Below, piece by piece: positions 1,420-19,600 of a stretch of DNA of 43,420 nucleotides (within the stretch, counting starts at the first letter, position 1; each line of letters begins with the position of its first letter). Location of the stretch: NCBI GenBank assembly GCA_016214075.1, contig JACRPI010000032.1, positions 1-43,420 of the forward strand, in the 5' to 3' direction. The stretch is from Candidatus Woesearchaeota archaeon (GTDB lineage: Archaea; Nanobdellota; Nanobdellia; Woesearchaeales; DSVV01). Below the pieces are notes generated by a model, which saw only the letters and a list, made by a program, of their open reading frames with translations, did not search any database and was not told the origin of the DNA. The translations under genes and the position numbers were made by a program.

Positions 1420-1521
1420 AGCGGAGTAGGGCAGTCAGGAGTGCCCGATGGGCTCATAATGTGAACTATAAGAGTTCAATGAGGTACCCATAGGTCAGTG
1501 GTTCAAATCCACTCTCCGCTA
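1420..1521 (+). tRNA. Initiator tRNA-Met (CAU) with a 27-nt intron
   Basis: All four arms fold: acceptor 1420-1426 with 1514-1520, D stem GGGC/GCCC (1429-1432/1443-1446), anticodon stem ATGGG/CCCAT (1448-1452/1487-1491), and T arm with TTCAAAT loop. The anticodon CAT is at 1455-1457. Two features mark it as the initiator: an A1-U72 pair and three consecutive G-C pairs at the base of the anticodon stem; the CGATGGGCTCATA..ACCCATAG core matches archaeal initiator tRNAs. The discriminator is A1521 and CCA is not encoded. The mature length is 75 nt without the intron (1459-1485). Confidence 0.93.
1459..1485 (+). other. tRNA intron at canonical position 37/38, with bulge-helix-bulge
   Basis: The 27-nt insert lies in the anticodon loop after A37. 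CTCA (1453-1456) pairs with TGAG (1480-1483), forming the 4-bp central helix of an archaeal splicing motif. It is flanked by 3-nt bulges TAA (1457-1459) and GTA (1484-1486), each cut after its second base. A distal hairpin TGAACT/AGTTCA (1462-1467/1473-1478) closes the intron. This is the standard substrate of the archaeal tRNA-splicing endonuclease. Confidence 0.88.
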
Positions 1522-1565: not shown

Positions 1566-2740
1566 CTACAAATTAAAGTATTCCGAGAAGCTTCTAATAA
1601 CATAATCCATATCTTCTCTTGTCACATCATGATGGCATCCAATATAGAACCCTGATTCATTAATCCATTTTGCTACAGGATACTCTGCTTCATTAATCGC
1701 AAATAACTTTTGATAGATCGGTTGATTAATCAACGGCAACATTTCACGTGTTTCAACTCCATTTGCTTCTAACCATCCAACAAGCTTCTGTTTTTTCTCC
1801 TGCTTTAAGACTATGGGGAACATCATAAATGAATGTTCTGCTCCTTGCCTGATTTTTGGAAGCTGCATATGACTTTCAAACTTCTTCAACTTTTCAATAA
1901 GATACGCTGCATTTTTTCTTCTTTTCTCGATTATACTCGGAAGATTTTCTAGCTGCGCAACTCCTAACGCTCCTTCCATTTCTGTGACACGAAAACTATG
2001 CCCCACGCTGATAAATCTAAACCGCGCATCTATAATTTCTTTCAATTCCTCATCTGACTTTCCATTGACATCATCAATACTGATGTAGATGGAATCTCTT
2101 CCGTGATTCACTAATGAGCGAAGCTTTACTGCATACTCAGGATTATCTGTCGTATTAATACCACCTACTCCTGTTACTAACAAATGCGCAATATAGGTGG
2201 AGAAACAGCCGATATCACCAAAAGATCCCACCATCTTTCCATTATACATTGCATACATTGTTTCACAAGAATCTTCAATGACTTTGAGATTATGCTTTCT
2301 TGCAATTGCCATAATTTGATCCATCGCGCAGGACATCCCAAACAAGTGAACGGGAATTATCGCGCGTGTTCTTGGCGTTATTTTCTCCTCAATTTTTTCC
2401 GGATCAATACTATAATATTCTTTTTCCACATCCACGAATACTGGCTTCATGTTGTTATGAATCACCACATTTGATGTTGCAACAAAGGTGATTGCTGGAA
2501 CAAGCACTTCATCACCATCATTCCAACCATGCAACTCCTTTAATGCCTGCACAGCAACATGCAGCGCGCTTGTCCCGCTATTACTCATGATCCCAAATTT
2601 GGAGTGATGTATCTTCGCAAATTCTATCTCTAATTTTTTAAGAAAAGGACCGTACGAGAGACGTCCTGTTTCCAGAACTTCCATGACATTTTTTTTGCCT
2701 GCTCTGATAATGTAACAGTACCCACACCAATGCGTTTCAT
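1566..2740 (-). CDS. DegT/DnrJ/EryC1/StrS-family PLP enzyme with His in place of the PLP lysine; N-terminal frameshift
   Basis: The continuous frame runs 2684-1566 (372 residues) and shows the family's SGTSALH motif, the EDSCETM segment and FSTYIAHLLVTGVGG. In sugar aminotransferases the equivalent of His167 is the lysine that binds PLP; His at this place is known from PLP-dependent sugar 3-dehydratases such as ColD and RfbH/E1. The family start normally lies further upstream. An ATG at 2740 gives a fitting N-terminus (MKRIGVGTVTLSEQAKK), but it is one base out of frame at a run of eight T (plus strand, 2689-2696). A TATA box at 2763-2773 fits a leaderless start at 2740. A sequencing error in the run or a true mutation are both possible. 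The neighbours (epimerase, GT2) support a nucleotide-sugar role. Confidence 0.8.
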
Positions 2741-2762
2741 ATTATAGGTGGTTTTTCTTTAT

Positions 2763-2773
2763 TTTATAAAGGT
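2763..2773 (-). promoter_or_regulatory. TATA box of the DegT-family gene
   Basis: Minus-strand CCTTTATAAAA is centred 27 bp before the ATG at 2740, the usual spacing for an archaeal leaderless mRNA. It supports 2740 rather than 2684 as the original start. Confidence 0.65.
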
Positions 2774-2786
2774 TGTTAGACTTCCC

Positions 2787-3494
2787 TTAGAATTTATTTC
2801 GTAGCCACATCTCACGCAAAAGAAGCTTTACAAAATAGAGCCCTGTTGGGATTGTTCGTGCAGTGCTTTGTCCACCAATCCTATCTCCTTCATACGTCGG
2901 AATTTCCTTTATTTTGTATCCTCTCTTTAATGCACGAATAGAAAGTTGATATTCAATGCCAAACCCTTCTGAATCAGGTTTAAGGTCCGCGTATATTGAT
3001 TTTTTTATTGCACGAAACCCATTGATGGAATCGGTGAGTTTCCCTCTCCATAGTATGTTTGCGATCAAGGTAAATCCTTTATTCCCAAATCCTCTGATGG
3101 GAAGTGGAACATCATCATCATCACTTCTTCCGCCATTCATGAACCTTGAACCTACAGCCATGTCACAGTCTTCTCCGAGCAATGAAACAAGAGGAATAAT
3201 GTCTTTTGGATCTTCATTTCCATCGGGGCTAAAAAAAACAATATGTTCATGCTTCGCAAGCTCTATTGCCATACGAAACGCTTCTGCCCGACCTAATTTT
3301 TCTTGTGTGTACACTTTAAGTCCTTTCTTTTCCATAACTTCTTTTGTTCCATCTTTAGACTGCCCATCTATTGCGAATGCATCATCGAAACTTTGGAGGG
3401 GGATTTTATCAAAAAGCACATTGACTCCATTACTCTCATTTTTCGTCAGAATCACTAACGTTGCTTTCTGTTTTGCATCCTTAGCAATTGCCAT
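2787..3494 (-). CDS. Family 2 glycosyltransferase (dolichyl-phosphate-sugar-synthase-like)
   Basis: The 235-residue protein has the GT-A fold signature of GT2: TLVILTKNES near the N-terminus, AIDGQSKDGT (residues 41-50), the metal/nucleotide-binding region SPDGNEDP (89-96), GSRFMNGG, and a late INGFRAIKKS segment as in dolichyl- or polyprenyl-phosphate sugar synthases. No membrane segment is obvious. It probably moves a sugar from a nucleotide sugar to a lipid carrier on the cytosolic side; donor and acceptor are unknown. The ATG lies inside the end of the epimerase gene (14-bp overlap), so the two are probably co-transcribed and translationally coupled. Confidence 0.82.
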   Translation of the reverse strand: MAIAKDAKQKATLVILTKNESNGVNVLFDKIPLQSFDDAFAIDGQSKDGTKEVMEKKGLKVYTQEKLGRAEAFRMAIELAKHEHIVFFSPDGNEDPKDIIPLVSLLGEDCDMAVGSRFMNGGRSDDDDVPLPIRGFGNKGFTLIANILWRGKLTDSINGFRAIKKSIYADLKPDSEGFGIEYQLSIRALKRGYKIKEIPTYEGDRIGGQSTARTIPTGLYFVKLLLREMWLRNKF

Positions 3495-4467
3495 TGCTCA
3501 TCTCCTCTTTGTACCATGCAATTGTTTTTTTTATTCCTTCTTCTATGGAAATTTTTGGCTTAAAATGTAATTTTGCTTTTGCTTTGCTGATATCGCTTGC
3601 ACGCCTCATATGCCCATCTGGTTTTGTGGTATCAAACACAATTTTTGGGGCTCTCTCTGCATGCTTACAAAGAAGTCCTACAAGATTTTTAATAGAAATT
3701 TCTTCATCACTTCCAATGTTTATTGGATCCCCATCGCATGCATGCTCTACTGCTGCCATTGCTCCATCACAAAAATCTTCGACGTATAAAAATGCTCTTG
3801 TTGGTTTTCCCGTCCCAAACACAGTGATCTTATCCTCTCCACTCATTATTTTTGTCAACAAGTTGGGAATAACATGTGCTTTTTCTGGCTCAACATTATC
3901 TCTTGGACCATACATGTTTGATGGTCTTATAATCGCGATTTTCATTCCAAACTCTCTCGCATATGCTCTGCTCAAAAATTCTTCCATACGCTTTGCCCAG
4001 CCATAGCCTTCGTTTGTCTGTTCAGGGACATTTTTGCATCCCTCACTTTCTGGAGTAGGAATTGTACACTCTGTTGAATAGATACACGCAGAACTTACTG
4101 TAAGAAATCGCCCCACTTTATTTTTTCTCGATGCATCAAGGACATTCATAAACGCACTAAGGTTTTCCTTAAAGATCGTCCCAGGATGGGCAACATTATA
4201 ATGTATTCCCCCAACATCCGCAGCAAGATGACAAACAATCTCTTTTCCATGCGTAATTGTATTGCAAAAGTCCGGATCGTACAAATTTCCTTCCATCAAT
4301 GTTATTTTGCCTAGGACTCTCTTTAGATTTTTCTCCACCTTGTTTTTATTTCTATAAGAAACAGTCACATCTGCTCCTGCCTCAACAAGTTTTTCCACAA
4401 AATGACTTCCAAGAAAACCACTTCCACCTGTCACTAGAATCTGCTTTCCTGCAAAAAATGTTGTCAT
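3481..4467 (-). CDS. NAD(P)-dependent epimerase/dehydratase, GDP-fucose-synthase-like
   Basis: This is an extended short-chain dehydrogenase (about 328 residues). It shows the Rossmann motif GGSGFLGSH, the catalytic serine segment VSSACIY, and the catalytic pair in YGWAK. The segment ADVGGIHYNVAHP and the SSACIY context resemble GDP-L-fucose synthase and the related GDP-colitose synthase (ColC). Substrate is not proven. The start was set at the ATG 4465-4467 because a TATA box (4489-4497) lies 27 bp before it; the ATG at 4486-4488 would sit next to that box. The frame overlaps the next gene, a GT2. Together with the His-type DegT enzyme it could make a deoxy- or dideoxyhexose. Confidence 0.82.
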   Translation of the reverse strand: MTTFFAGKQILVTGGSGFLGSHFVEKLVEAGADVTVSYRNKNKVEKNLKRVLGKITLMEGNLYDPDFCNTITHGKEIVCHLAADVGGIHYNVAHPGTIFKENLSAFMNVLDASRKNKVGRFLTVSSACIYSTECTIPTPESEGCKNVPEQTNEGYGWAKRMEEFLSRAYAREFGMKIAIIRPSNMYGPRDNVEPEKAHVIPNLLTKIMSGEDKITVFGTGKPTRAFLYVEDFCDGAMAAVEHACDGDPINIGSDEEISIKNLVGLLCKHAERAPKIVFDTTKPDGHMRRASDISKAKAKLHFKPKISIEEGIKKTIAWYKEEMSNGNC

Positions 4468-4488
4468 AAACAAAAGAGAACAAATCAT

Positions 4489-4497
4489 GTTTTTAAA
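4489..4497 (-). promoter_or_regulatory. TATA box of the epimerase-GT2 pair
   Basis: Minus-strand ATTTAAAAA is centred 27 bp before the ATG at 4467. It lies just after the stop codon (4501-4503) of the upstream gene, indicating a separate transcription unit. Confidence 0.55.
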
Positions 4498-4500
4498 TGT

Positions 4501-6579
4501 TTATTTTCCCACATAAAACGAAACCGTTCTTTCTGCGTTATTCTCATACTCGTCTTTACAGATAACAGTGAACGCATTATAACCCTGCTCCAAGCCTTTC
4601 AAATTTGCTCTAAACGCACTCTCTGTCACTTGTGTCATCTCGAGATATTCCAAAGAACCATACGCAGCGTATCCACAGGAGATATTATCACTTTCTGTTG
4701 TTGTGACCGTGAGCGCAGTGTCTTGTTCTACTTCTTCATTGTCTTTTGGACTTACTGTCATAATCTCAAGACCACTTGATTTTTTTAATGAGTACGTTGT
4801 TGATGTTGTCGCAACATGCTGTTCGCTTTCTTCATCGTAACAGATAATCTCGTAATATTGTATTGTTTCGATTGTTTCTGTTATTTCTGCAGTTTCATTC
4901 GTTTCATCGGTTTCATTTGTTTCTGGTATTATCTTTTGCTGGATTGTCACTGCTGCTCTGCATTCATACTCTCCAAGATTTCTGCTCGCTTCTTCTGTTT
5001 TTTCACAGGTCATCGCTGTTTCAGTTGTTTCATTTTTCATCACGCAATTTCCTTCTTTATCTGAGAAGAAATGTATTGCTGCTGTTTTTTGGGAGACATT
5101 AAAGATTGTTGTTTTTGTTTCTGAGAGCAACGAAGAACTCACGAAAATAGTACTTGTATTCTCTTCTGGAACATCTGTCACATTAATGTAGCCGCGATAT
5201 TCTTCTGAAGGATTTTCTGTCTCATCAAGAATCACTTCTGAATAGATCTGACTTCCCAATCCTGATGTATTTGAGGATTGTATTCCAATAAGGTATGTTT
5301 TTTTGTTTTCTGGATTGTCTACGCAGCGGATGTCTATTGTGGTATCTGTTATTGTCGCGAGGGTTGTTGTACACTCATAACTTCCTCCTGCAATGCCGAC
5401 AAAGTCGTATGGTTTGTTTTTGCAGCTTAGCGCGTATTCCATCGTGTCATAGCTTTTATCGCTGTAATCATACTTACACTCCGCAGGTTCATCTGTATAG
5501 ATGTAGATTGGTGTTATTCCCTGCTCGTTTCCAATGAACGAACCATCTTCTGGCGACGCCGCAACAATCACTGGCGCAGCGGTGTCTTCTGTTGCATTCG
5601 CTATATTAAGTTCGACGAAAAGTTCTTCTGTTTCTGTGTTTCCATACCTGTCTTCGCAACTGATAAACAAATAATATCCGCCACTGTCAAATTTGTCCAT
5701 AACGGTGATGGAGAGATTCTTGTATGTTGGATAGGACGCGCCCACGCTCGCGATCATATCATGGATCTCATCAACGTATGGGTCAAGAACATCTCCAAGA
5801 TCATCTCCTGTCGCAGTATTGTAGACGTCAAAGACCGCAGGGAATTTCTCTTCATAGTTTTCTAAAAGATCATCAGGCGCTTCAAGCGCAGTAATCATCT
5901 GCTCTGCTGTCGTGAGATTTAAACCATCTTTTACTTTTTCTGGGATTTCCATTCGTGGAGGAGTTCTCATCGTGAGGGTGTGTGTTGTCGCGTATTCTGA
6001 AGTGCCCATAACGAAGACTGGCGCATCAAACAGCTCTGTACTGGGGAGGTAATCTAAATGACATATTGTTTCTTCATTTGTCTGAATGCCCATTGAAAAT
6101 AATTTGTAGGGGAGAATTTCTGGTGTTATTGTATAGCCGTGATATGATGTTGTTTCTATTTGTAATGTTTTTGGTTCTGCTGTATATCCTGCGCTGAGCT
6201 GGTCGCTGTCAAATGTGATGGTGATGTTCTTTTCTTCTTTCCCTGATCGCGGCCGGCAAATAGGGAAACCGTCTTCTTCTTCATAGACACATTTTTTCCC
6301 AAGACTCTTGCATTTATACTCTGTGCATGGTGTGTTTCCTTTTTCACATGCTGCACAGCTTTCTCCTGTCTTTGGCGCTTGCCAGACACCGCAGAACGTC
6401 ATTTCAGTCACTTCTACTTTTGGTTTTTTTGTAAATGGATTCAGATAATTTGGAACAGTAACCCCTACCCATTGATTCACAAACTGATATGCTGTGCTGA
6501 TCATTTCCACAAAAATATCCGCAGTTTCTTCCACAGGAGAGCCAAGCAGATTATTTTGTACTTGGACGTTTCTTGGCAA
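4501..6579 (-). CDS. Secreted/surface protein, distal part; same frame as the gene at 6778-8160, separated by one TAA
   Basis: The stated frame starts at a TTG (6577-6579), but it is open back to 6777 with no ATG, GTG or TTG in those 66 codons. That extra stretch is protein-like and Cys-containing (KTCSGLFCEQEW...). It is directly in frame with the upstream gene after its TAA at 6778-6780. The region contains a Cys-rich part (residues about 60-110), two or more Ig-like/beta-sandwich stretches (for example EDTAAPVIVAASPEDGSF and the YECTTTLATITD region), and a C-terminal Ig-like domain (...CKDEYENNAERTVSFYVGK). It lacks a signal sequence of its own, which makes sense only if it was once one chain with the upstream part. 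Function unknown; probably extracellular. Confidence 0.65.
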   Translation of the reverse strand: MPRNVQVQNNLLGSPVEETADIFVEMISTAYQFVNQWVGVTVPNYLNPFTKKPKVEVTEMTFCGVWQAPKTGESCAACEKGNTPCTEYKCKSLGKKCVYEEEDGFPICRPRSGKEEKNITITFDSDQLSAGYTAEPKTLQIETTSYHGYTITPEILPYKLFSMGIQTNEETICHLDYLPSTELFDAPVFVMGTSEYATTHTLTMRTPPRMEIPEKVKDGLNLTTAEQMITALEAPDDLLENYEEKFPAVFDVYNTATGDDLGDVLDPYVDEIHDMIASVGASYPTYKNLSITVMDKFDSGGYYLFISCEDRYGNTETEELFVELNIANATEDTAAPVIVAASPEDGSFIGNEQGITPIYIYTDEPAECKYDYSDKSYDTMEYALSCKNKPYDFVGIAGGSYECTTTLATITDTTIDIRCVDNPENKKTYLIGIQSSNTSGLGSQIYSEVILDETENPSEEYRGYINVTDVPEENTSTIFVSSSLLSETKTTIFNVSQKTAAIHFFSDKEGNCVMKNETTETAMTCEKTEEASRNLGEYECRAAVTIQQKIIPETNETDETNETAEITETIETIQYYEIICYDEESEQHVATTSTTYSLKKSSGLEIMTVSPKDNEEVEQDTALTVTTTESDNISCGYAAYGSLEYLEMTQVTESAFRANLKGLEQGYNAFTVICKDEYENNAERTVSFYVGK

Positions 6580-6777
6580 TATGGTGATTGGTTCTGCCTC
6601 TTCTTTTACTTCATATATATTCTCGCTTGGATTATATTTGAAATTTGATTCAAAAAATCCTGCTTCTGTTGTATCGAAAAGGATATTTTGACTATTTCCA
6701 CAATCGCCTTGTGCGTCGCACGATATTGCCGCCGCGTCAATCCATTCCTGCTCACAGAATAAGCCAGAACATGTTTT

Positions 6778-8160
6778 TTACGCGTTTGCTCTGCTGCACA
6801 CTTCTATGCCATTATAATTCCAGAATTTAAATCCAGGAGGGACGTAGGGCGTGCATTGTGTTTGCGCTGTTGCTTGTGTGCTTTCTTGATCTTCTGTGAG
6901 GTGCTGAAGCGCTTCATTCCAATAACAGTCTCGCTCTTTTGTGTTATCACAACAAGATTCACTTGTACATTGACTGCAATCCTGCCAACGATTTGGCCTG
7001 CACACTGCTGTTGTTCCTGCTCGTCCATTTATGAGCGCTTGCCCTTCAACGCAGATTTCTTCCCGATAATCTCTGCATGCATCTGTTATGGTTTCTCCGT
7101 TTATGCAGGAGTACAGTATATGCCTACTTCCCACGACATCTTTTCCCTGCCCTGTTTCCGCGTCATATCCACACCAACTTTCTCCATGCCTGTATGTGCC
7201 ACAATTTCGACATTCTCCGCCATTACATAGTGTTTCTTCATCTTGTTGTTCTGCCGCTGCATCATTGCAACTGCATGGCGCTGTTTCATAGATACCATTT
7301 TTTTCTTCACAAACGGTACTTGGCGTATTCGCGTAACAGCTTTGCGCAAGACCCACATAACAACAGCCATAAATTGGTTCTTGGCCACCAAAGCGGATTT
7401 CTCCTGGAGTTTCTACTGTGTCTATTCCCTGCACTGCAAACTGAAGCGTGAAAGAAGATCCTTGTTTTTGTATCGCGTATATTGTTGAAGGATATGGCTT
7501 TGCTCTTCTGATGCTGATTTGCGTATGATTGATCATGTAATTGGTTGTATCAAAAGAACCTTCTGTACTCTCTTTGTTGATAATATATCTTGCAATGTTC
7601 TGGAGCTCTCCTAATGGCACCGCACTTGTTGCTTGGAAATTTTCCACTGTTGTTGTTTCGCCATCTTTCGTGACTTTGAGCGGATAGGTGATTTGCACTT
7701 CTACTGCATCATCTGTTATTGTCACTGTTCCTTCAAAAACACCTTTTGTGATTTTGTAGCCTTGACCTTCAAATGTTTGGAAATTTAAGCAATTGTCTAT
7801 TTCTTCCCTGATTCCATAAAGGATTTGATCTTCGATTGCATCTGCGCTTAGCACTGCATTGACGCACTGCTGGGTTCCTTCTCCATAACACCAATATTCT
7901 ACTGACGTGTTTTCATAGACTTTGTAGTAGACTGGTTCATACACCCCCCCTTGGAGCGCGACTTTTGTGATGACTTCTTCCGCAACTGCTTCAAGACAGG
8001 ATTCTGTGTACTCTGTTAATGACGCCGCGTCAATTTTTTCTGGAATTTCCTGTATTTCTTCGGCGGTTTCGCTTGCGTAGTAAAGAAAAATACCTGCGCT
8101 GAGCAAGAGGATAAGTCCCAAAATTATGAATATAGTGACCTGCCCTCTTTTTTGATTCAT
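6778..8160 (-). CDS. Secreted, membrane-anchored Cys-rich protein (GQVTIF N-terminus), proximal part
   Basis: The 460-residue product begins MNQKRGQVTIFIILGLILL, a short charged head followed by one hydrophobic segment (residues about 8-28). This resembles the class III/pilin-like signal anchors seen in many DPANN proteins. A soluble domain rich in beta-type sequence follows (30-240), then a Cys-dense region (about 260-445) with CC, C-x-x-C and related spacings that suggest disulfides outside the cell. The TATA box 27 bp upstream fits a leaderless start. The frame ends at TAA 6778-6780, but the same frame continues as credible protein for another 758 codons. The original gene was probably about 1,218 residues. 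Family function unknown. Confidence 0.72.
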   Translation of the reverse strand: MNQKRGQVTIFIILGLILLLSAGIFLYYASETAEEIQEIPEKIDAASLTEYTESCLEAVAEEVITKVALQGGVYEPVYYKVYENTSVEYWCYGEGTQQCVNAVLSADAIEDQILYGIREEIDNCLNFQTFEGQGYKITKGVFEGTVTITDDAVEVQITYPLKVTKDGETTTVENFQATSAVPLGELQNIARYIINKESTEGSFDTTNYMINHTQISIRRAKPYPSTIYAIQKQGSSFTLQFAVQGIDTVETPGEIRFGGQEPIYGCCYVGLAQSCYANTPSTVCEEKNGIYETAPCSCNDAAAEQQDEETLCNGGECRNCGTYRHGESWCGYDAETGQGKDVVGSRHILYSCINGETITDACRDYREEICVEGQALINGRAGTTAVCRPNRWQDCSQCTSESCCDNTKERDCYWNEALQHLTEDQESTQATAQTQCTPYVPPGFKFWNYNGIEVCSRANA

Positions 8161-8182
8161 CAGTCTTTTTTGTGCTTTGTCG

Positions 8183-8190
8183 GTTTATAT
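8183..8190 (-). promoter_or_regulatory. TATA box of the GQVTIF-protein gene
   Basis: Minus-strand ATATAAAC is centred about 27 bp before the ATG at 8160, as for a leaderless transcript. Confidence 0.6.
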
Positions 8191-8208
8191 AGTTTGTGAC
8201 GGAGCGCA

Positions 8209-9348
8209 CTACAAGAAATCAACTTCTACTTCAAACGCATCCTGTGTTGGATATTCTTCGACAATTGCTGGCACATAGCCTGCTTCTTTCACTGCTTTCG
8301 CGCACATTTTTCTTTTTATTTCTCGAATTGGACAGAGAAGCCTATATTTTTTTTCATCAATCTCGATGTCCGTGACTATCTTTTTTTGGAGTAAACTTTC
8401 TCTTGCCGCGCTGAGCTTTTGGAGGAGTTCTTCCTTGTTTTCGACTGCTTCAAGCTTTTTCTTGTATCCTACTCCCGGAACAAATTCTTTCAAATAGACA
8501 ATGCCTTTCATTATTGTGCCATCTTCAGTCATTTCTTCTTTTACTGTCATAATACTTTCCGCTCGCTTTTTTATTCTCCTACGCATCTGAATGTTATCCT
8601 TGAACGCAGAACTGCAATAGTGGATCCTCACTTTGTCTTCTTTGAATTCTTTGAGGAGCGCTTTCGCAAACTCTTCTGACCCTTTTATTCCATACGAAAG
8701 CGTGTTTTTTGTGAGATATTTTCCCTTGTCAAACTGCGCCGCATTGGTATCAGAATACTCTAACTCATTCAAATTAATGAACTGAACATACTGCTTCGCG
8801 AAATTGATGAGCTCGATTGTTTCTTTTTCTTTTCCTGGAATCGCGGGAATTTCCATCCCAAAATGCCAGGGGAATTTTGTGCCGTTTTTAATTTGTTCCC
8901 AATATTTTTTATCGTCAACATCAGGATGGCAGCGAATTTCATCCAGACCCGCATCGTATAATTTTTTAAGATTTTCTTCTGTGAAGAGGTTGAGTGAAGT
9001 GTATAAATGAATATGAAACTCTTTTCCAAAACGCTCTTTGAGCATTTTTATGAACTGCGCTGTGCGGTCAACACGCACGAGTGGATCTCCTCCTGTGATT
9101 CCGACGCCCTTGCTCTTGCAGAGCTGGATTTCTTTGATAATATTATTGAAATCATCTGTTTTCCACTCGTTGATGTAGATTTCATCTTTCTGCCATTTTT
9201 GCTCAGAAATTGGACAATAAAAGCAATGCCGTGGACAGACTCCTGTCACAAAGAAGACAGATTTCTCTCCAGTAATGCATAATTCGCATCCTTTCGCTAA
9301 CGATCCTTGATGCGCATCCGCATGCTTTTCTTCAACTTCTGTTGCCAT
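8209..9348 (-). CDS. Radical SAM protein, COG2108-like (pyruvate-formate-lyase-activating-enzyme-related)
   Basis: The product (379 residues from the chosen start) carries the radical SAM cluster motif C-x3-C-x2-C as CPRHCFYC (cysteines 38, 42 and 45), with a second Cys pair just before it (KGCELCITG). It also has the GGDP motif of the SAM-binding strand. The region after the core (IHYCSSAFKDNIQMRRR) and the overall length fit an archaeal family related to pyruvate-formate-lyase-activating enzymes whose reaction is not known. The frame is open to 9483, but a TATA box at 9371-9379 lies 27 bp before the ATG at 9346-9348. The extra N-terminus would come from an intergenic inverted-repeat element, so 9348 is preferred. 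Confidence 0.82.
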   Translation of the reverse strand: MATEVEEKHADAHQGSLAKGCELCITGEKSVFFVTGVCPRHCFYCPISEQKWQKDEIYINEWKTDDFNNIIKEIQLCKSKGVGITGGDPLVRVDRTAQFIKMLKERFGKEFHIHLYTSLNLFTEENLKKLYDAGLDEIRCHPDVDDKKYWEQIKNGTKFPWHFGMEIPAIPGKEKETIELINFAKQYVQFINLNELEYSDTNAAQFDKGKYLTKNTLSYGIKGSEEFAKALLKEFKEDKVRIHYCSSAFKDNIQMRRRIKKRAESIMTVKEEMTEDGTIMKGIVYLKEFVPGVGYKKKLEAVENKEELLQKLSAARESLLQKKIVTDIEIDEKKYRLLCPIREIKRKMCAKAVKEAGYVPAIVEEYPTQDAFEVEVDFL

Positions 9349-9611: not shown

Positions 9612-10271
9612 ATGGTACTCGTTTGCGGCATTGATGAGGCAGGAAGAGGTCCTGTTATCGGACCACTTGTTATCGCTGGCGTTGTGCTGGATGAAAATGA
9701 ATTTCATAAATTGCAACAAATTGGTGTTAAAGATTCCAAACTTCTTTCTCCTTCTACACGAGAACGACTTTTTGATCAAATCAAAGCAATTGCGCCACAG
9801 CATCACATTATTTCTCTCTCTCCCGCGCAGGTTGACGAAGCTGTTCTCGCAAAAACACAAAACAATAATCTCAACTGGCTTGAAGCAACGACTTCCTCTG
9901 AAATCATCAACAAATTACAGCCTGAAAAAGCGATTGTGGATTGTCCCAGCAATAATCTTACCGCATACACGCGATTTGTTCGCGATAAATTACGGAACAA
10001 AGGGATATTTCTCGTTTGTGAGCACAAAGCAGATGTCAATTATGTAATCTGCGGCGCAGCGTCTATTCTCGCGAAAGTCACTCGCGATCGCGCGATTGAA
10101 GATTTGAAAAAGCAGATCGGCGTTGATTTTGGGAGCGGGTATGTCACTGATCCAAAAACCGTCGCGTTCTTACAGGAATATTGGGATAAGATTGACGTGT
10201 TCCGAAAAAGCTGGGAAAGCTGGCAACGATTCGCGCGCAATACAAATCAGAAGAAGCTGGGGGAGTGGTGA
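9612..10271 (+). CDS. rnhB: Ribonuclease HII
   Basis: The 219-residue protein opens with the family signature CGIDEAGRGPVIGPLV. The four acidic catalytic residues are visible: Asp8 and Glu9 (IDEAGRG), Asp110 (AIVDCP) and Asp141 (CEHKADVNY). The GAASILAKVTRDR segment that follows is typical of RNase HII. It removes the RNA part of RNA-DNA hybrids and starts ribonucleotide excision repair in the cytosol. The length is normal for archaeal RNase HII. It converges with the methyltransferase gene, with one base between the stop codons, so the two transcripts must overlap at their 3' ends. Confidence 0.96.
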   Translation: MVLVCGIDEAGRGPVIGPLVIAGVVLDENEFHKLQQIGVKDSKLLSPSTRERLFDQIKAIAPQHHIISLSPAQVDEAVLAKTQNNNLNWLEATTSSEIINKLQPEKAIVDCPSNNLTAYTRFVRDKLRNKGIFLVCEHKADVNYVICGAASILAKVTRDRAIEDLKKQIGVDFGSGYVTDPKTVAFLQEYWDKIDVFRKSWESWQRFARNTNQKKLGEW

Positions 10272-10272
10272 G

Positions 10273-10920
10273 TTAGGTTTTTGTCGCAATCGCTTCAATA
10301 AAATGCGAGGTCTTTTCTCCTTGCGATCCTTCATATGTTCCTTTTGTTTTTTCAATGTTTATGATTTGGAAGTTGCTTAGTTTTTGTTTCATGTATTCTT
10401 CATCAAAGAAATGACGAACATAATTTTCTTCTGTCACAAAGACATTTTTCTCTACTTCTTTTCCTTTGCCAAACTCTTCATCTTCTGTTGATTTACATTT
10501 TATGAACAGAAAACCACCTCTCGTGAGCATCTTATGGAGCATTTTGAAGATTTGCTCTGTTTGCTCGTCAAGAAAATAATGAAGACTCAAATGCGTGTAG
10601 ATGATGTCAAATGAACTTTCTGGAAATTGAAGATTCTGAAGATCTTGCTCTATAACTTGTATGTTTGTTATCTTTTCTTCATTTATCTTTTTATTTAGAA
10701 TCTCTAATGCGACTGGTGAGACATCTGTCGCTGTCACTTCATAGCCTCGCTTTGCAAAGAAGATACTATCTCTTCCGTCTCCACAACCGAGATCGAGCAC
10801 TGTTTTCCTTGATTTATCTTTTAGAAACTCTATGCACTGTTTTGCAAATTCTGTTGGGTCTCGTTTCTCTTTTCTTTCTGTTCGCTTTTTCCAGTACTGG
10901 TCTTGTTGGAGAGGTTGCAT
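10273..10920 (-). CDS. Class I SAM-dependent methyltransferase
   Basis: The 215-residue protein contains SAM-binding motif I as VLDLGCGDGRDS (residues 41-52), motif II in TATDVSP (63-69), and the later DIIYTHLSLHYF segment of the methyltransferase-11/TehB-like class. The N-terminal QYWKKRTERK stretch is also common in small-molecule methyltransferases. The substrate cannot be read from the sequence. It is the last gene of the minus-strand run, 10 bp after the GT2 at 10931, so a role in modifying a sugar or lipid intermediate is possible but unproven. Confidence 0.85.
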   Translation of the reverse strand: MQPLQQDQYWKKRTERKEKRDPTEFAKQCIEFLKDKSRKTVLDLGCGDGRDSIFFAKRGYEVTATDVSPVALEILNKKINEEKITNIQVIEQDLQNLQFPESSFDIIYTHLSLHYFLDEQTEQIFKMLHKMLTRGGFLFIKCKSTEDEEFGKGKEVEKNVFVTEENYVRHFFDEEYMKQKLSNFQIINIEKTKGTYEGSQGEKTSHFIEAIATKT

Positions 10921-10930
10921 GCTCTAAATT

Positions 10931-11926
10931 TTACCCCAACAACCATCTTACCCCTTTCAATTCTCCCCACGCATAGCTGAAATGTTGGATGAGAAAGGCG
11001 AGAAAGACCTGCAGAAATCGCGCTGATTTGCTCTGCTTCAGAGAAATAAGAAGACTATATAACAGAATAAAAGGGAAATACGCATACGGCACAAGCAGCC
11101 AGACATTTTTTGTCCAGAAATACGCAATTCCTGAAACAACAAACACTGGAATGAAAAATAATGGAAGCAGATATTTTCCGCTCACCAAATCTGGATGCTT
11201 TTTCATCAAGCGCATTCTGCCATCTCCATAGAACACCATATTCTTCCAAAACGCTTTTGGCGTCGCGCGAAAATTATGCCAGACAAATGAGTCGTGAATC
11301 CCATAGACAATGTATCCTTTCTTTTTCAGCTTCGCGCCAAGATCCCAGTCTTCTCCCTGATTTCCTAATTCTTCTGAGAACATACCCACATCAAGCAGCG
11401 CTTTTTTCTGATGCAATGAATTCGCGCAGGAAATACTGAACACAGGCTTATTCTTTTTCATCGGTTGGGCTTGAATGCTTCCAAGCGAACCAAGCATTGA
11501 ATTAAACGCAATCCCAATCGCTTCCTGAAACACTGTCGCGTCTTTGGGCGGAATATTCGCGCCACCAACTCCCGCAAGCATTGGATTTCCCACTGCATGA
11601 CGAGAAAATCCTTGCCTCAATCTGCGCAGCCAATCTTCTGGCACAATACAATCCGCATCAGTAAACGCAATGAAGTCATATTTTGCATTTTTTATCCCAA
11701 TATTTCTGCACTCAGTAATGGATCCTTTTTCTTTGCTATGAAAATGGAGATTCGCATGCTGCTCCTGCGCTTTTTTTACAAGAGATTGCGTGGCATCTTT
11801 TGAACCGCCATCAACAATCAGAACTTCATAGCTTTCTTTAGGAACGTCTTGCTTGAGCAATGATTCAAGACATGAAGAAATATTCTTCTCTTCATTCAAT
11901 GTGACAACAATCACGGAGACCTTCAT
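10931..11926 (-). CDS. Family 2 glycosyltransferase with C-terminal membrane segments
   Basis: The 331-residue protein has a GT-A domain: VSVIVVTLNEEKNI at the start, VDGGSKDAT (residues 38-46), the metal-binding TDADC (89-93), and GEDWDLG further on, corresponding to the ED motif of processive-type GT2 enzymes. Two or three hydrophobic helices follow (about 245-315), which should anchor it with the active site in the cytosol. It is part of the operon 14639-10273; its ATG lies inside the end of the preceding small gene (35-bp overlap). Probably adds a sugar to a lipid-linked glycan; donor unknown. Confidence 0.85.
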   Translation of the reverse strand: MKVSVIVVTLNEEKNISSCLESLLKQDVPKESYEVLIVDGGSKDATQSLVKKAQEQHANLHFHSKEKGSITECRNIGIKNAKYDFIAFTDADCIVPEDWLRRLRQGFSRHAVGNPMLAGVGGANIPPKDATVFQEAIGIAFNSMLGSLGSIQAQPMKKNKPVFSISCANSLHQKKALLDVGMFSEELGNQGEDWDLGAKLKKKGYIVYGIHDSFVWHNFRATPKAFWKNMVFYGDGRMRLMKKHPDLVSGKYLLPLFFIPVFVVSGIAYFWTKNVWLLVPYAYFPFILLYSLLISLKQSKSARFLQVFLAFLIQHFSYAWGELKGVRWLLG

Positions 11927-12344
11927 TTGTGTACCTCTCTATAAAGACGCTGACTCTGCATTCCAGATTTTCCGGGACTTTTGTTCCAGTAAATACTATA
12001 TCGCAAAACAAATCGTCTTGCAAAAAGACCCCTTGCGCAATAAGACAGGCATCTGACATAGGCTCTTTGCCTGTGCAATCGTAGCCTTGCCTGATAAATA
12101 TACTGTAACACTGCGAGGATAAGCGCAGATTTTTAATGTTTTCGCAGAGAAGCGGATTGTTTTCTGCTGCTGCTTGCACTGCATACATTTCAGACTCTTT
12201 CTCGTCAGTATATCTTGCTTTTAGTGTGAAAAGAGTGATACATATGAGAAGAGTCAACGCTATCCAGAAAAAGAATCTTACAACTTTTTGCAACTCTTCT
12301 TTTCGCTGTTCTTCTTTCTGTTGTTCCTTATGTTCTGCTGTCAT
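11892..12344 (-). CDS. Small membrane-anchored protein of unknown function
   Basis: This 150-residue product has a charged Glu/Lys/Gln-rich N-terminus (1-20), one membrane helix (about 22-42) and an outside domain with six or seven cysteines. I do not recognise the family. The gene starts 2 bp after the GT-C-like gene and overlaps the next GT2 by 35 bp, so it is firmly within the operon. It may be an accessory subunit or a small conserved protein of the glycan locus; this is inferred only from position. Confidence 0.65.
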   Translation of the reverse strand: MTAEHKEQQKEEQRKEELQKVVRFFFWIALTLLICITLFTLKARYTDEKESEMYAVQAAAENNPLLCENIKNLRLSSQCYSIFIRQGYDCTGKEPMSDACLIAQGVFLQDDLFCDIVFTGTKVPENLECRVSVFIERYTNEGLRDCCHIE

Positions 12345-12346
12345 TT

Positions 12347-13543
12347 TCAGAACACCCCAAGCTTCATTTTTATTTCTTCAAGAACTGCGTTGATTACTGC
12401 ATTGCCGCCAGCATCTTCCAAAATCATTGTTCTACTTGGATAGAGCCACGCGCCAAGGAAAGATATTATTGCATACAGAAGGATAAAGCAGATAATGGTC
12501 TTGTGTACCGCAAGCGTATTTTTCCATTTTTCCGCAAGGAACAAGATTCCAAGCGCAGCAAGCGGCAAAAGAACAGGAAATAAAACCATGCTAAATCTCG
12601 GCGATGTTAACGCAACAAGCTGGATTCCTACCAGATACAGAAGCGCACATAGTCCATAAAGCGCGTAGAATAGTCTTCTTTCTTTCTCCTGTTCTTGTTT
12701 CCATCCAACATATGCAAGGATATATGCAATGTGGAACGCTGCGCCATGCACAATGATAAATTTCAACCAGCCCAGTAATGAATATTTTCCTGCAGTAATC
12801 GCCGCTGCTTTTCCAGAAAGCACAGAGCCAACATTGTAGTACCACATGAAAATAAATTCAGGGACAAAAATGATAATTATAAGAGTAAGAAACATAAAAA
12901 AAGCCGTTAAAATACTTTTTGTATTTTTTATCTCTTTAATTATGTTTATATGAATCAAATAACGTATACAATAATAAGGTACTAGAATAATAACAGCGTC
13001 ACGCACTAAAAAGAAGAGACCCAAAACAAGACCAACAAAACATAAATGAGCCCATCGAATTTCTTTCTTTTCAAAAACGTATTCTATTACCCAAAGCCCA
13101 AGCACAAGCGTGAGATATCCTGCCGCGTCCACCAACACTCTTGTTGCATACAACATTAATGGAAGTGAAACAGCATACAACGCTGCTCCAATATACGCAA
13201 GTATTTCTTTTTGCTCATGATTCTTAAAGAATTTTTTCAACCAATAATAAAACAAAATCGTTGTTGCCGCAAAAATAATCATGTTTAGAATGCTATACGC
13301 CTGACGAACACCAACGAACGGCTCAAGCATTGCCGCTGCCATAATTTCTACTGGTCTTTTGAACGCATAACTCTGCAAGACACGCTCTGTATCATCGTCT
13401 CCTAATATTTCTCCTTGCAGATAATACGTTGATGGGACATACGCCTGTGTATCCACAAGAACAGTATTATAATATAACAACCCCGAAAGGATAGAAATAA
13501 AAATCAGACTCAGCAACCAGTATGTTGTTTTCATACCACTCAC
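12347..13543 (-). CDS. Polytopic GT-C-like membrane protein (family 39-like)
   Basis: The 398-residue protein is mostly hydrophobic with about nine to ten membrane helices. The N-terminal helix is followed by an outside loop with acidic residues (GDDDTERV near residues 48-55). The middle LMLYATRVLVDAAGYLTLVLG stretch is typical of the glycosyltransferase-39/PMT-like superfamily, whose members transfer sugars from dolichyl- or polyprenyl-phosphate carriers outside the membrane. Assignment rests on this general layout, not on a proven active site. It begins within the ATGA overlap with the DUF2304 gene, so translation is coupled. Confidence 0.65.
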   Translation of the reverse strand: MSGMKTTYWLLSLIFISILSGLLYYNTVLVDTQAYVPSTYYLQGEILGDDDTERVLQSYAFKRPVEIMAAAMLEPFVGVRQAYSILNMIIFAATTILFYYWLKKFFKNHEQKEILAYIGAALYAVSLPLMLYATRVLVDAAGYLTLVLGLWVIEYVFEKKEIRWAHLCFVGLVLGLFFLVRDAVIILVPYYCIRYLIHINIIKEIKNTKSILTAFFMFLTLIIIIFVPEFIFMWYYNVGSVLSGKAAAITAGKYSLLGWLKFIIVHGAAFHIAYILAYVGWKQEQEKERRLFYALYGLCALLYLVGIQLVALTSPRFSMVLFPVLLPLAALGILFLAEKWKNTLAVHKTIICFILLYAIISFLGAWLYPSRTMILEDAGGNAVINAVLEEIKMKLGVF

Positions 13544-13908
13544 TTTTTTTTGCGCACAGGATTTTGAATCGCAATTTCCCGCACCAGTTTTGTCATTTCT
13601 TTTTGCTGCGCCTCTACCTTCACATAAATTCTAAACAGCGCGTAGAAAAGAATAATCATCCCGGTGTAAATTAATGTATCTACTCCTCTTCCAATCCCTA
13701 AAAATTTTGAAAGCGTGACAAAAATACTCGGAAAGATCGCGACACAAATAACTCCGCCCCATATTACTGTCCAGAAAAAGAGCTCATTCGCTTTAATGCT
13801 GTGATCTTTATAGCGCAAGATTGCTCTGCTCAGCGCGAAGACCGCAAAGAGAATGCCAATTATCTGAAGCATCCCAAAATCTCCCAGCGCTTCTATCCCA
13901 ATACTCAT
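13540..13908 (-). CDS. DUF2304 membrane protein
   Basis: The 122-residue protein has three membrane helices (about 12-28, 42-62, 75-97) and the family's recognisable ending: a charged tail with KVEAQQKEMTKLVREIAIQN. DUF2304 genes commonly sit beside a dolichyl-phosphate-sugar GT2, as here (the GT2 stop is 17 bp upstream). They are thought to help anchor or assist that enzyme, although the function is not established. The stop overlaps the start of the next gene (ATGA). Confidence 0.82.
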   Translation of the reverse strand: MSIGIEALGDFGMLQIIGILFAVFALSRAILRYKDHSIKANELFFWTVIWGGVICVAIFPSIFVTLSKFLGIGRGVDTLIYTGMIILFYALFRIYVKVEAQQKEMTKLVREIAIQNPVRKKK

Positions 13909-13925
13909 TTTTCCACCGTTGTTTC

Positions 13926-14639
13926 TTACTTCAATACTTTACTCTTAATCATATTCCACAAAATACCCACTGCAGCAAAAGTGCTTTGCCCCTTCTCAAG
14001 CGAATACGCTGTGTAGGTAATAGTGACTGGAACTTCTTTATAGGAAATGTTTTGTTTTCCTATCTGCTCCACTATTTCTGACGCATGCTCCATGCGATCT
14101 GCCTTTAACTCAAGCTTCCGCACTGCTTCTCTTTTTATCGCGCGAAATCCATTATGCGAATCTGTCAATCGGACTCCATAAAACAGCCAAATAATCCAAG
14201 CACCCCCTTTGAGTATCATCTTTCGATGCCAAGGAACATTGGACATTGTATCTAAAAATCTTGAACCCAAACACGCATCTACTTCTTCAGCGTGTATTGG
14301 CTTTGTTAATCGTCCAATCTCTTCTGCATGATGCTGCCCATCCGCGTCAAAGGTTACAATAATTTCCGCGTCATTCTTCATCGCAAAATCTATTCCTGTT
14401 TTTAACGCCGCGCCTTGTCCTCTGTTCATGAGATGGCGAAGTACTGTCGCGCCAGCATCTGCCGCAACCGCTCCAGTCGCATCTTTTGACCCATCATCAA
14501 CAACAATAATATTGTGATAACCATTCTTTTTGAGATCAGAAATAACCGCGTCAATTCTTTTTTCTTCGTTATAACCCGCAATAACTACCCATACCGCATC
14601 ATTGCACTGTTCTTTCTTTTCTTTCTGCTCCATATCCAT
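13926..14639 (-). CDS. Family 2 glycosyltransferase (dolichyl-phosphate mannose/glucose synthase type)
   Basis: The 237-residue protein has the clear DPM1-like pattern: VVIAGYNEEKRID, VVDDGSKDAT (residues 47-55), RGQGAALKTGI, the metal-binding TFDADGQH (97-103), GSRFLD, and LTDSHNGFRAIKRE. No membrane helix of its own is convincing, but a DUF2304 partner follows directly. It likely charges a polyprenyl-phosphate carrier with a sugar on the cytosolic face, for use by the GT-C-like proteins and AglB nearby. It is the first gene of the operon 14639-10273. An ATG two codons downstream is an alternative start. Confidence 0.87.
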   Translation of the reverse strand: MDMEQKEKKEQCNDAVWVVIAGYNEEKRIDAVISDLKKNGYHNIIVVDDGSKDATGAVAADAGATVLRHLMNRGQGAALKTGIDFAMKNDAEIIVTFDADGQHHAEEIGRLTKPIHAEEVDACLGSRFLDTMSNVPWHRKMILKGGAWIIWLFYGVRLTDSHNGFRAIKREAVRKLELKADRMEHASEIVEQIGKQNISYKEVPVTITYTAYSLEKGQSTFAAVGILWNMIKSKVLK

Positions 14640-14670
14640 CCCTTATTCTCTCTAATAATCTTTATTCTTC

Positions 14671-14679
14671 TTATAAAAC
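14671..14679 (-). promoter_or_regulatory. TATA box of the 14639-10273 operon
   Basis: Minus-strand GTTTTATAA is centred about 36 bp before the ATG, allowing a leader of roughly 10 nt. No comparable promoter was seen inside the operon, where genes overlap or nearly touch. Confidence 0.5.
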
Positions 14680-14711
14680 TTATGCATGTTCTACATGTAC
14701 TTCTGCGTGCA

Positions 14712-16541
14712 CTATTCTGTTATTTTATACAACTCCACGACCAGATTGCCTTCTTTATCAAAATACTGATAGACTGCTTCCATTTTCAAAACAATGTCTT
14801 CCTGCTCCACAACAAGCACTTTTTTGAGCGGAACATCTTTGTCTCCTGCTGCCAAACGAACCTTTGCTGTTGCTGTTTCAATTCCATTTTCTTCAAGATA
14901 TTTGTTATACATCGGATCTGTCTGCAAACACCAATACGCGGCAGTTGTCTTGTCTTCTTTTTTTCCATACACTGTTTCGTTCCAGCGCTGATTGCACAAT
15001 GCCTTGAATTCTATGTTTTGCGTTTCTAAGAACGCATACGTCACCTGATATTCTTTCATCAGCTCTTTTGCTTTTGTCCTATTTGTTCCAAACAAAATAA
15101 CTGCCATATCTGCTGTTCTTTTGTTGTGATCCACAAATGGCGAGCCGTGGGTGACTCTTGTCGTCATCACATTTTCTCCAGTCATCGCGTTGAAGAAGAA
15201 GCCAACATCTGGATGCGTGGTGATCACGACATCCTCTTCTGTGATCATTCCTTTTTCATCAAGATATTCCCGCAACGCATTGTATGCTTTTATTTTTTCA
15301 CTGTCTTCTGTCGCGTATGCATATCTGTCTGAGCTTTTGTATTCTTCTATAATGTTGATAAAAGAAAATATAGCGATACCTGTAAATAGAAGAAGGAAAA
15401 TTCCTGTGGTCGTTTTTTTGGAGAACTGCTTTTCTGTTCTTTTCTCTGCCTGCTTCCAAATATAGAAAAGTCCTGTAATCAAGATAAGATGCTTGACAAA
15501 AACAAGCACAATGGGAAATCTGTAATATCCGAGACTCATGCCTAGCGTTGGATAGGTTAAATAAGGATGAATATAACCCAGCAGCGCCGCAACAAAAAGC
15601 AACAACGGAATAAATATTTTTGTTTCCTTGTTCTTTACCCCATACCAAATAAATCCTACAAACGCAATGAGGAATATTATTGTTGCTGTTGTCCGGATTC
15701 CTGCACCAAAAACAAAATCTGTGAATAAGGCACGCACTGCTTCTTCTGTGGGCATCACGGATTCTGATGTATAAATCTGCCAGTCATTCAGCGTGTTTCC
15801 CTGATATTTCAACAGCAATGGCGCCCAAAATAATAACGCGATCGCAATTCCTACGCAGAAAATGAGACACCATTTTTTTCTTACTGCTTTTTCCGCTGTA
15901 AAATCCCCTGAAATTATTTTCTGCAGAAGGATGAAGAAAAAAAGTATTCCTGCAACAATGAATGTCACGAGATGCTGTAACCCCGCAAGACCAAAAATAA
16001 TTCCCGCGATAAGTACTTTCTTTTTTTCAATATCTTTATTGATCTGATAGAGGAGCAGCGCAAAAATCGCAAGCAACGGAATCATCAGCTGTTTTGCAAA
16101 TTCTGAAGGATGAAACGCAGGAACAAGTTGTACTGCCCATGTGAGAGAAAGGATTAGTGCCCACGTCTTGTTTTCAAAATACATTTTTCCGAAAATGTAT
16201 GTGATAATAATTGTTGCAATCAGAATAAGAATAGGAAAATAAATTCCAACAGTTAATATGTCTATAAAAGAAATTTTTGCAACAAGCGCGATGAGAAATT
16301 GGGTGAGCCAGGGATAGTGCTGCAGTTCTCCAAGATACTGCGCGCTGATAAATGGATTATATGTATTGTAAATCTTGAGCGCTGACGCGAAATGCGCATA
16401 ATGATCTCCACCATAATATTCTGAAGGGAATTGATTGAAACTAGAAAAAAGAATACCATAAAATATTGTGAAGAAGATGAGAATAATGCACACTGCTTTA
16501 TCCTGCCACTGCATTGATTTGAAGAAAGTACTTGGTTTCAT
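14712..16541 (-). CDS. Polytopic GT-C-type membrane protein with C-terminal soluble domain
   Basis: The 609-residue protein has a membrane region with about ten or more helices (residues 15-410) and a C-terminal domain of about 200 residues likely outside the cell. The first outside loop carries YYGGDHYAHF, with Asp46 where GT-C enzymes such as STT3 and PMT keep a catalytic acid. The overall layout, including the soluble tail (VTHGSPFVDHN...), recalls oligosaccharyltransferase-like or related GT-C proteins, but the diagnostic WWDYG motif is absent, so it is not a second AglB. Probably a lipid-linked-sugar glycosyltransferase. A TATA box lies 25 bp before its ATG. Confidence 0.72.
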   Translation of the reverse strand: MKPSTFFKSMQWQDKAVCIILIFFTIFYGILFSSFNQFPSEYYGGDHYAHFASALKIYNTYNPFISAQYLGELQHYPWLTQFLIALVAKISFIDILTVGIYFPILILIATIIITYIFGKMYFENKTWALILSLTWAVQLVPAFHPSEFAKQLMIPLLAIFALLLYQINKDIEKKKVLIAGIIFGLAGLQHLVTFIVAGILFFFILLQKIISGDFTAEKAVRKKWCLIFCVGIAIALLFWAPLLLKYQGNTLNDWQIYTSESVMPTEEAVRALFTDFVFGAGIRTTATIIFLIAFVGFIWYGVKNKETKIFIPLLLFVAALLGYIHPYLTYPTLGMSLGYYRFPIVLVFVKHLILITGLFYIWKQAEKRTEKQFSKKTTTGIFLLLFTGIAIFSFINIIEEYKSSDRYAYATEDSEKIKAYNALREYLDEKGMITEEDVVITTHPDVGFFFNAMTGENVMTTRVTHGSPFVDHNKRTADMAVILFGTNRTKAKELMKEYQVTYAFLETQNIEFKALCNQRWNETVYGKKEDKTTAAYWCLQTDPMYNKYLEENGIETATAKVRLAAGDKDVPLKKVLVVEQEDIVLKMEAVYQYFDKEGNLVVELYKITE

Positions 16542-16560
16542 TTTGCGGTATTTTAGTTTA

Positions 16561-16569
16561 TTTTATATT
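16561..16569 (-). promoter_or_regulatory. TATA box of the GT-C gene at 14712-16541
   Basis: Minus-strand AATATAAAA is centred about 25 bp before the ATG at 16541, as for a leaderless transcript. Confidence 0.55.
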
Positions 16570-16663
16570 ATTGGAATAAACTTTTCCATAAAGCATGCGT
16601 TTGTGGTATAGATCGTTGCTTGGCGATTCTATAACAAAAATCATTAGCTCTCAAATGTTTTTA

Positions 16664-19600
16664 TTACGCTTTGGTCTCTTCCGTTGTCTCTGCTATTTCT
16701 ACTTCTTTTATCTCGACAGGCATATCAGCAGAACCAACAATTTCTTGCTGCACAAACACTTTATTCGCAGAGCTACAAGACCAATCCACTTTCCAAACAT
16801 AAATAGTTTCTCCTGTCACTGTATGCTGCTCTTCAAACAAATCAAAACACTCGAGGTTGTGGCCTTTGTAAAAAAATAATTTTGTGAACATGCTTTCCAG
16901 CAGTTGAGAATCCATGAAAAAGCCAGTAAAGCTTGCTCCTGAAGGAATTATCGCCGCGCTGTACGACGATCTGCCATCTGATGAAATGAGCACATCACTT
17001 TGGTTACTGAAATCAGTTGTATTAAACGACCCATCTGGCGCAATATACAGCAATTTTTGCGGATGCTTGTACCCTTCGCTTGTCAGCACGCCTGCATCAC
17101 CTGTGGTAAAATTAATCATAACTCCTGAACCGCAGAGGAGCATTTCGTTTTCCTGCCAGCAATCCTGTGGCATGGTGACATACGAAGGCCATCCTGTAAT
17201 CCAGTTATTTGGGTCACTTGTTATTGCCTCATTGTATAATTTTTCCGCTTCTTCCACAGAAAGACCAATATCATTTTCGATGATTGTTAGCGCTTCTTCT
17301 TTTTCATACGCATTCGCGACATTCACGATGTACGCTCTTTCGAAATTCCATGACCCGAAGTGCGCCCAAACTCCTGATTTTCCCACCATATCCTGACTTG
17401 TAATAAAATAATCTTCTGGAGGAGTACAATGCGTGTACTGAAGCACTGCGCTTGCTTCTTCTTCACTGAATCCATTTTCTGTTAATGCTGTTCTTGCATC
17501 TTCTTCTGTCATCAAAATGATTTCTTTTGTGAGCGTGATTGTCTTGTACGAATTATTTATTTTTTTGTAGATAGTATCGTACGCGCTATTTCCGCCACAA
17601 TCTAACATGCGCAGAATTCCAACTGCTTCACTTTCGCTGTCTGTGAGCAACGCGCGCCCAATCCAGTGCGCCTGCGGCGTATCCTGTGAACCTCCATCAA
17701 ATGTCACCGCGCGATCCGCAATCGCTTTAAACCAATGACCAAAATCCCACCATGAATTGACTATCGCGTCTGGCGCTGCCTCTTGATTAATTTTTTCCAA
17801 GGCATTATACCATCCATCATTGATTAAAGGCATTTGCTGGCTTCCCAACGTATAGCCTACTCCAATCGGTAAGAAAAGGAGAATCGCGACTCCCGCAATA
17901 AGGACAACCTTTACCCATTTTACCTGCAATTTTATGAGATCCGCAATAACGTCTGCCCAAATTCGATAGACAAAAGAAACACCAAATCCACACGCGACCG
18001 CAAACGCTGGCACGAGAATCATCACGAAACGAACCCCCTGCGTACTTGCGTAGATAGTTCCGACAAACCAAATGAACAAAAGAACAGCATATTTCATGTC
18101 CGCTTTCTGCTCTTCAAGGAGCGCATAGATGACTCCAATAAGCAATGGAATACCTACTAAAAAGAAAAACAAAAATAATGTGTCCTGAAGCTGCGGAATC
18201 CATTTAATGATCGCGGCATACCACATACTTACCCCGACAAAATAGATTGTTGTAAAGGAAACCTTTCTGTAAATCAAATAAAACAATGGCGCGAATAATA
18301 AGAGGGTGAAGAAAAATGGAGAGATTATTTTTCCACTCAACAGCGTCAGTAGAATCACCCACGCAAGTCCCGCCGCAAGCATCCATTCCTGCTCTTTTTC
18401 AATAATCGCACGCTCAAAAAGCGCATACCCTACTCCTAAAAACGCAAGTAGAAGAAGAATTCCCATTCCAAAGCTCACTGTGCCAATTATTTCTGACAAA
18501 GAAGCTGGATTGAATTCCGCAACTGTTGTTAAAACGTTTGGCCAGATTTTGATAACTCCCACTTCTTTGATCGTCGAAAACGCAAGTGGTTCCTTGACCG
18601 CATTGACAAATACTTTAAAGCTGGAAAAGAACGTGACGAAAAGACCACAGCATACAATGAAGATGACCAACGCAAGAAGCAATTTTTCTTCTTCACTTTC
18701 AAACTGCTTTTTCTTTATTGTTTCCAAACCTGTTTTTACTGCTGCTCCTAACACAAACAACGGCGCAAGAATAATCGCGCCAATGATCCAAGTGATCTTC
18801 TGATTGCGCTCTTTTCCCGCGATGTATTTTTTGACAAACACATACCACAAAGAAACAAAACAAACACCAAGAAGGAAATCATAAATGTACCACCAGCCGC
18901 CCCACGTGTAGCTGAAGATTCCTACAATCATTCCCCCCAATGCGCCGAAACCCAGCGCTTTTTTCCAATTTTGCGCTTCAAGCGCTTCGATAAAAATCCA
19001 CATAATTAATAGAGGGAAGAGAACGTTATAGCCATCTGTATCAGAAAATCCCGCAATTGTTCTTCCAATAAACGCTGGATGCACCGCAACGATTGTCGCC
19101 GCGACAAACGCGCCCATATTTCCCGCAACCTTTTTCACCATGAAAAATGCAGGGATAACCGCCAACGCAGCAAGAAGCACTGGCAAGAAATACACCACAG
19201 TCATCAATCGAATGTTTGGCGCAAACAAAGAAATTATTTTGTAAAGATATGCTTCCACCATCACGTGAAAATGCGGGAGTTTACTTGTTTCTCCACCGAG
19301 TACTTCACGCGGTGTCCCTGCCATCTGATGCGTGTCATAATATCTTCCATTGAGTTCGATGTCGCCTTCATACCCATGTTCTAGATAATTTTCTGTTAAT
19401 CTATAGAAATACCATGGATCAATTTCTCCAAGATACGTTAATCCATACTCGTCCTGAAATTGTGCTTTAATTTGCTGCGCATTTTGTTCTACGAGGTCTT
19501 CTATCGCGATTTGCTGCCCCAGATAATCAATTGTTCCTGCCGCATAGATCGCATCGAGCTGCTCTTGCGCAAGCTTCTGCTTGTTTTCCTCAGGGAGATT

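Follow-up and report, generated by a model that had tools for sequence, protein, structure and literature searches.

A private in-frame TAA in a putative surface-protein gene of a woesearchaeal draft genome: a probable young nonsense allele or a one-base assembly error

Analysis of the window (the whole stretch of 43,420 nucleotides studied here, which is the entire contig C32 of a 1.62-Mb Candidatus Woesearchaeota draft genome with 46 contigs and 98% completeness) showed a gene on the minus strand (4501..8160) made up of 460 codons, a TAA, a further 758 codons and a terminal TAA. The in-frame TAA at codon 461 (6778..6780, minus strand), read from the translation and absent from the same column in homologs, was private to this genome and looks like a fresh broken copy of the gene or a one-base assembly error, not like a novel use of the code. 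The preferred reading, to which a probability of about 60% is given, is that one substitution turned codon 461 into a stop and left a recent or segregating loss-of-function allele of a gene for a pilin-anchored surface protein with Ig repeats. The TAA would then be a real base in the cells, and termination at it would be complete.

The first-pass annotation had described a gene of about 1,218 residues broken by one nonsense codon, with both halves in the same phase. Translation confirmed that the frames 8160-6778 and 6777-4501 (minus strand) are one frame split at this TAA, with the terminal stop at 4501, and the reconstruction of one gene was supported by homologs, which were single open frames of the same extent, open across the site. 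The 758 codons behind TAA 6778-6780 contained no second stop, and the probability of such an open frame under the sampled base composition was about 1.7e-22. The 66 codons directly behind the stop (6580..6777, minus strand) had been reported to lack a start codon and to read as normal protein. Both observations held: the first start-like codon was a TTG at 6579-6577 and the first ATG came after 91 codons, and the stretch obtained a coding score of +18.2 bits and was conserved in relatives, with a mean column conservation of 0.498 in the homolog alignment (0.44-0.52 upstream). A run of 66 codons with no start-like codon has a p of 0.067 at the gene's own frequency, which is unremarkable alone; what matters is that these codons score as coding and align to relatives. 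The downstream part carried no leader in the translation, in agreement with the signal sequence reported as missing there.

A sample of the genome, comprising the window and 20 further stretches (377,615 bases), contained 16 same-frame pairs of open frames, and only the window's pair had a long coding-like stretch with no start, the next best scoring +4.2 bits. The wider check of 264 coding-like frames gave one other weak break candidate (29 codons, 8.7 bits, window 12350-13630).

The translated protein began with a leader and membrane segment (residues 1-30, 8071..8160, minus strand), in which KRGQ is followed by a hydrophobic stretch. The N-terminal leader was MNQKRGQVTIFIILGLILLL, and the leader KRGQVTIFIILG is presumably similar to archaeal class III (prepilin) leaders. 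Three further regions were recognised on the minus strand: an N-terminal domain (about residues 30-245, 7426..8073), delimited by locus comparison and by the model mc3e4ab0bb9d1 and encoded in distant relatives by a gene of its own (about 250 residues); a cysteine-rich module (about residues 290-520, 6601..7290); and a C-terminal region (residues 690-1219, 4504..6093) with predicted helices followed by Ig-like beta domains. The assignment of the last region came from its model (pLDDT 81), from a Foldseek search that gave 240 matches at E <= 0.001 to Ig repeats, with low TM-scores, and from Big_13, which was present in the C part of 11 of 20 members and absent from the window's own. No Pfam match was found for either part of the window protein, nor for residues 30-720 in any of 21 members, and neither part matched NCBIfam. 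A profile of residues 30-720 gave one insignificant match (E 0.66) against PDB sequences, and Foldseek of the N model gave no match at E <= 0.001. A cystatin-like/NTF2-like fold for model residues 76-153 was not supported, the best VIA-align Z of 4.6 (rmsd 3.5, 75 aligned) being below the meaningful level.

The gene lies between the two parts of a surface-glycan cluster (1566-4488 and 10273-19831, minus strand), which contained a DegT aminotransferase, GT2 glycosyltransferases, a sugar-nucleotide epimerase, DUF2304, a PMT_2-like protein and an STT3/AglB-like oligosaccharyltransferase. DegT and a glycosyltransferase were also found near the gene in the congener G002. The leader, the Ig-like C-terminal region and the glycan-gene neighbours make a surface role of the protein likely.

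The stop cuts the cysteine-rich module, whose extent was read from conserved and invariant alignment columns. Columns conserved in at least 86% of rows lay on both sides of it, with C404, C412, C436, W447 and C455 before the stop and C464, C469, W473, C481 and GDCGN (485-489) behind it. In the AlphaFold model of residues 30-720 (mc3e4ab0bb9d1, mean pLDDT 79, 21 sequences, with a placeholder put in for the TAA), the stop corresponds to model residue 432, inside the strand 431-436, in a block with pLDDT 82. With conserved Cys and Trp on both sides and the stop in mid-strand, the 460-residue product would therefore end within the module and lack some of the conserved cysteines.

Relatives were compared at the stop column in three sets that overlap: a 21-row homolog alignment, a 352-genome search within the order, and tblastn on 79 named loci taken from the GTDB collection; the genome collection searched holds one genome per species. 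For the alignment, 20 regions with long matches were fetched from 18 genomes, and 21 homolog rows were aligned with the window, leaving out matches to the N-terminal domain only as well as G161:C166, G036:C92 and G005:C73; the first alignment omitted L043 (gap), and the second omitted L037 and L043. The column was a sense codon in all 21 homolog rows and was variable, with 8 different residues. The 352-genome search returned 37 matches in 30 genomes to the 136 residues around the site, and among these only the window's copy had a stop, the 36 others (29 genomes) being open and covering the column. The tblastn gave 91 matches crossing the site, from 76 of the 79 loci, with 81 sense codons, 10 gaps and no stop in the column. 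A search with the N part (194 genomes) showed that, for the long matches, most open frames extend to about 1,090-1,370 residues, and that the shorter frames were those next to a contig end or, in G153, an assembly gap.

The congener G002 had one frame of 1,201 residues, with identity to the window protein of 55% before the stop and 49% behind it. The alignments demonstrated that the two sides of the TAA are parts of a single homologous protein read in one frame, uninterrupted at this column in the homologs, as expected for a nonsense allele. A chimeric contig was rejected, G002 having both sides in one frame. The gene was present in 10 of 11 genomes of the family, the own genome included, and its C part was single copy in the own genome. 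A genome-contig search with the C part alone gave no relatives, and tblastn against plasmids gave no match.

The part behind the stop showed none of the signs of a decayed pseudogene (further stops, lost conserved residues, faster change). Behind the stop, 16 columns with an outgroup majority were changed in the window lineage and 17 in G002; within the 66 codons the counts were 6 and 3, which lean against a young null allele but are too few to weigh. All 45 columns in which 70% or more of the outgroups have Cys were kept in the window copy (24 before the stop, 21 behind it), and the differences by codon position were alike before and behind the stop. With no decay seen behind the stop, the change is either very recent, not yet fixed, or an error of the assembly.

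A young null allele would have arisen through a single nonsense substitution at codon 461, too recent for decay to have accumulated behind the stop. Translation would end at the TAA and give a product of 460 residues with a prepilin-like anchor, the N-terminal domain and a cysteine-rich module that is incomplete. The 758 codons behind the stop (the rest of the module and the Ig-like repeats) would stay untranslated, because no start occurs for 66 codons and any later start comes with no leader. The sequenced allele would thus be a young or still segregating null. Nonsense interruption of this sort is a known and common kind of event, and the gene resembles young nonsense pseudogenes and strain-level null alleles of prokaryotic surface genes in having one premature stop, intact homologs and an otherwise normal frame, but differs from them in that no subsequent decay is present and in that the stop is known here from the assembly alone. 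Two points count against a young null allele: the absent decay is equally expected from a sequencing or consensus error or from real read-through, and one would not quite expect a null allele in a gene that is single copy and retained throughout the family. A real stop would mean that an uncultured archaeon loses or varies a conserved, single-copy surface protein in nature, which would hint at strain-level surface variation.

The alternative that survives best is that the TAA is a single-base assembly or consensus error and the gene is intact in the cells, which we regard as possible, with the odds clearly against it. It would fit one change in an otherwise undecayed gene, private to one assembly, on a contig of a 46-contig draft genome. 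Among the aligned homologs one further break was found, in L043 (G153): a 53-base gap beside unread bases, near column 2061 of the alignment with L046. This break is an assembly artefact, the gene of the congener G122 being intact. Against it, the change replaces a base and keeps the frame, whereas the six A beside it would be more prone to errors of length. The 264 sampled coding-like frames also contained no other strong break, so that the assembly is not rich in errors of this kind. Should the TAA be an error, an annotation that lists two false genes would be corrected. The first-pass annotation had offered four causes for the interruption; recent mutation and sequencing error stand after this comparison, while conserved read-through and slippage-type phase variation found no support in the evidence given below.

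Functional read-through, in which UAA is decoded or suppressed so that products of both 460 and 1,219 residues are made, was judged improbable. The undecayed downstream part and the long form made by relatives would agree with it, but no homolog had a stop at this column, and read-through genes are called by conservation of the in-frame stop among homologs (PMC1914089). The column is also variable, so a special residue is not called for. TAA ended 140 of 265 sampled coding-like frames of the own genome (TGA 64, TAG 61), and aRF1 was intact and uninterrupted; on these two counts genome-wide reassignment of TAA was rejected. No UUA anticodon was found among 39 distinct tRNAs predicted by ARAGORN (41 Rfam tRNA matches in the genome), and no stimulating RNA structure was found around the stop, since 42 of 200 shuffled sequences folded as well as the real one (z -0.80). 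A narrower form of the idea, in which productive UAA read-through specific to this DPANN species works at a fixed rate and yields a short anchored protein beside the full-length surface protein, would explain the undecayed tail and is quite improbable as well.

Known read-through genes (selenocysteine at UGA, pyrrolysine at UAG, suppressed stops) share with the window gene a coding sequence that continues in frame behind the stop, but here the stop is UAA, which is neither the UGA nor the UAG codon of selenoproteins and pyrrolysine proteins, and it is private to one genome in which a UUA tRNA was not found and aRF1 is intact. No literature on UAA read-through in Woesearchaeota or on this protein family was found in the open-access library searched. 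An ARAGORN call of an intron-containing tRNA-Pyl (CUA) in L073 (1501-1607, contig C30 of the own genome) was rejected, as the intron at the canonical place gives CUU, a tRNA-Lys, and as a suppressor it would concern TAG in any case. Miscalls of this type could cause these archaea to be credited wrongly with the use of pyrrolysine. The Rfam tRNA match in L081 that had no ARAGORN model showed no anticodon-loop intron in the alignment and appears to read GAA at the anticodon.

That the gene is in fact two genes, with the downstream part translated on its own, is highly unlikely, although neighbouring genes for the N-terminal domain and for the cysteine-rich protein do occur in some distant relatives. 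Of the 79 named loci, 31 had the N-terminal domain in one frame with the cysteine module, as in the window gene, and 21 had it as a separate gene just upstream; the other 27 were neither fused nor split (contig edge, no N-terminal domain within 400 bases, or no module match). L182 is an example of the split form, with a 252-residue gene (3860-4618) that runs into the beginning of the next one (4615-8319), which encodes 1,234 residues and a hydrophobic leader of its own among them. The second gene of the split relatives has its own ATG and signal sequence, and the stops in the tblastn matches of split loci fell at query residues 241 and 255. The boundary in the split distant relatives, as placed by this locus comparison, is near residue 250, about 200 residues ahead of the TAA at 461. 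In contrast, the second part of the window gene sets in within a conserved module, with no start for 66 codons and no leader. The first-pass annotation had named relatives with two separate genes and a genuine second start as what would speak against one interrupted gene, and no division of this kind was found at codon 461, the split relatives dividing near residue 250.

Phase variation that switches the gene off and on at the stop site carries an equally slight chance: surface proteins next to glycan genes, such as this one, are typical targets of such switching, but inverted repeats and close direct repeats were absent at the site (in a repeat search that omits runs of 1-3-base units), the six-A run lies behind the first base of the stop, where a change of length shifts the frame and does not restore the long one, and the genome holds no second copy of the C part to recombine with.

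Whatever the origin of the TAA, the undescribed protein family is a more interesting by-product than an ordinary nonsense event. Judged by the matches, the family is widespread in Woesearchaeota and Pacearchaeota, with a prepilin-like N-terminal domain, a cysteine-rich module and Ig-like repeats in the same order at full length in G002 and in the 31 fused loci, the window copy alone being interrupted at codon 461. A pilin-like anchor fused to, or encoded beside, a cysteine-rich Ig-repeat protein makes this a fusion/fission family for which there is no Pfam model, and its window member matched neither Pfam nor NCBIfam. Tandem copies of the proteins with the N-terminal domain and cysteine-rich Ig repeats were seen in several loci. 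L192 (JAUYPF010000021.1), a contig titled 'bacterium', carries a member of the otherwise archaeal family and is perhaps mislabelled or mis-binned.

Elsewhere in the window, an RNase HII gene was found at 9612-10271 (plus strand); in 5 of the 20 fetched loci, homologs of it lie close to the counterpart of the interrupted gene. Two more genes, at 33900-37067 and 39122-42457 (plus strand), encode very large products (about 1,055 and 1,111 residues) with weak repeat-like matches (polycystin-type; tandem-95 and SMC-like). An intron-containing tRNA Met(CAT) at window 1420-1521 (plus strand) was missed by the default run of ARAGORN and found by Rfam.
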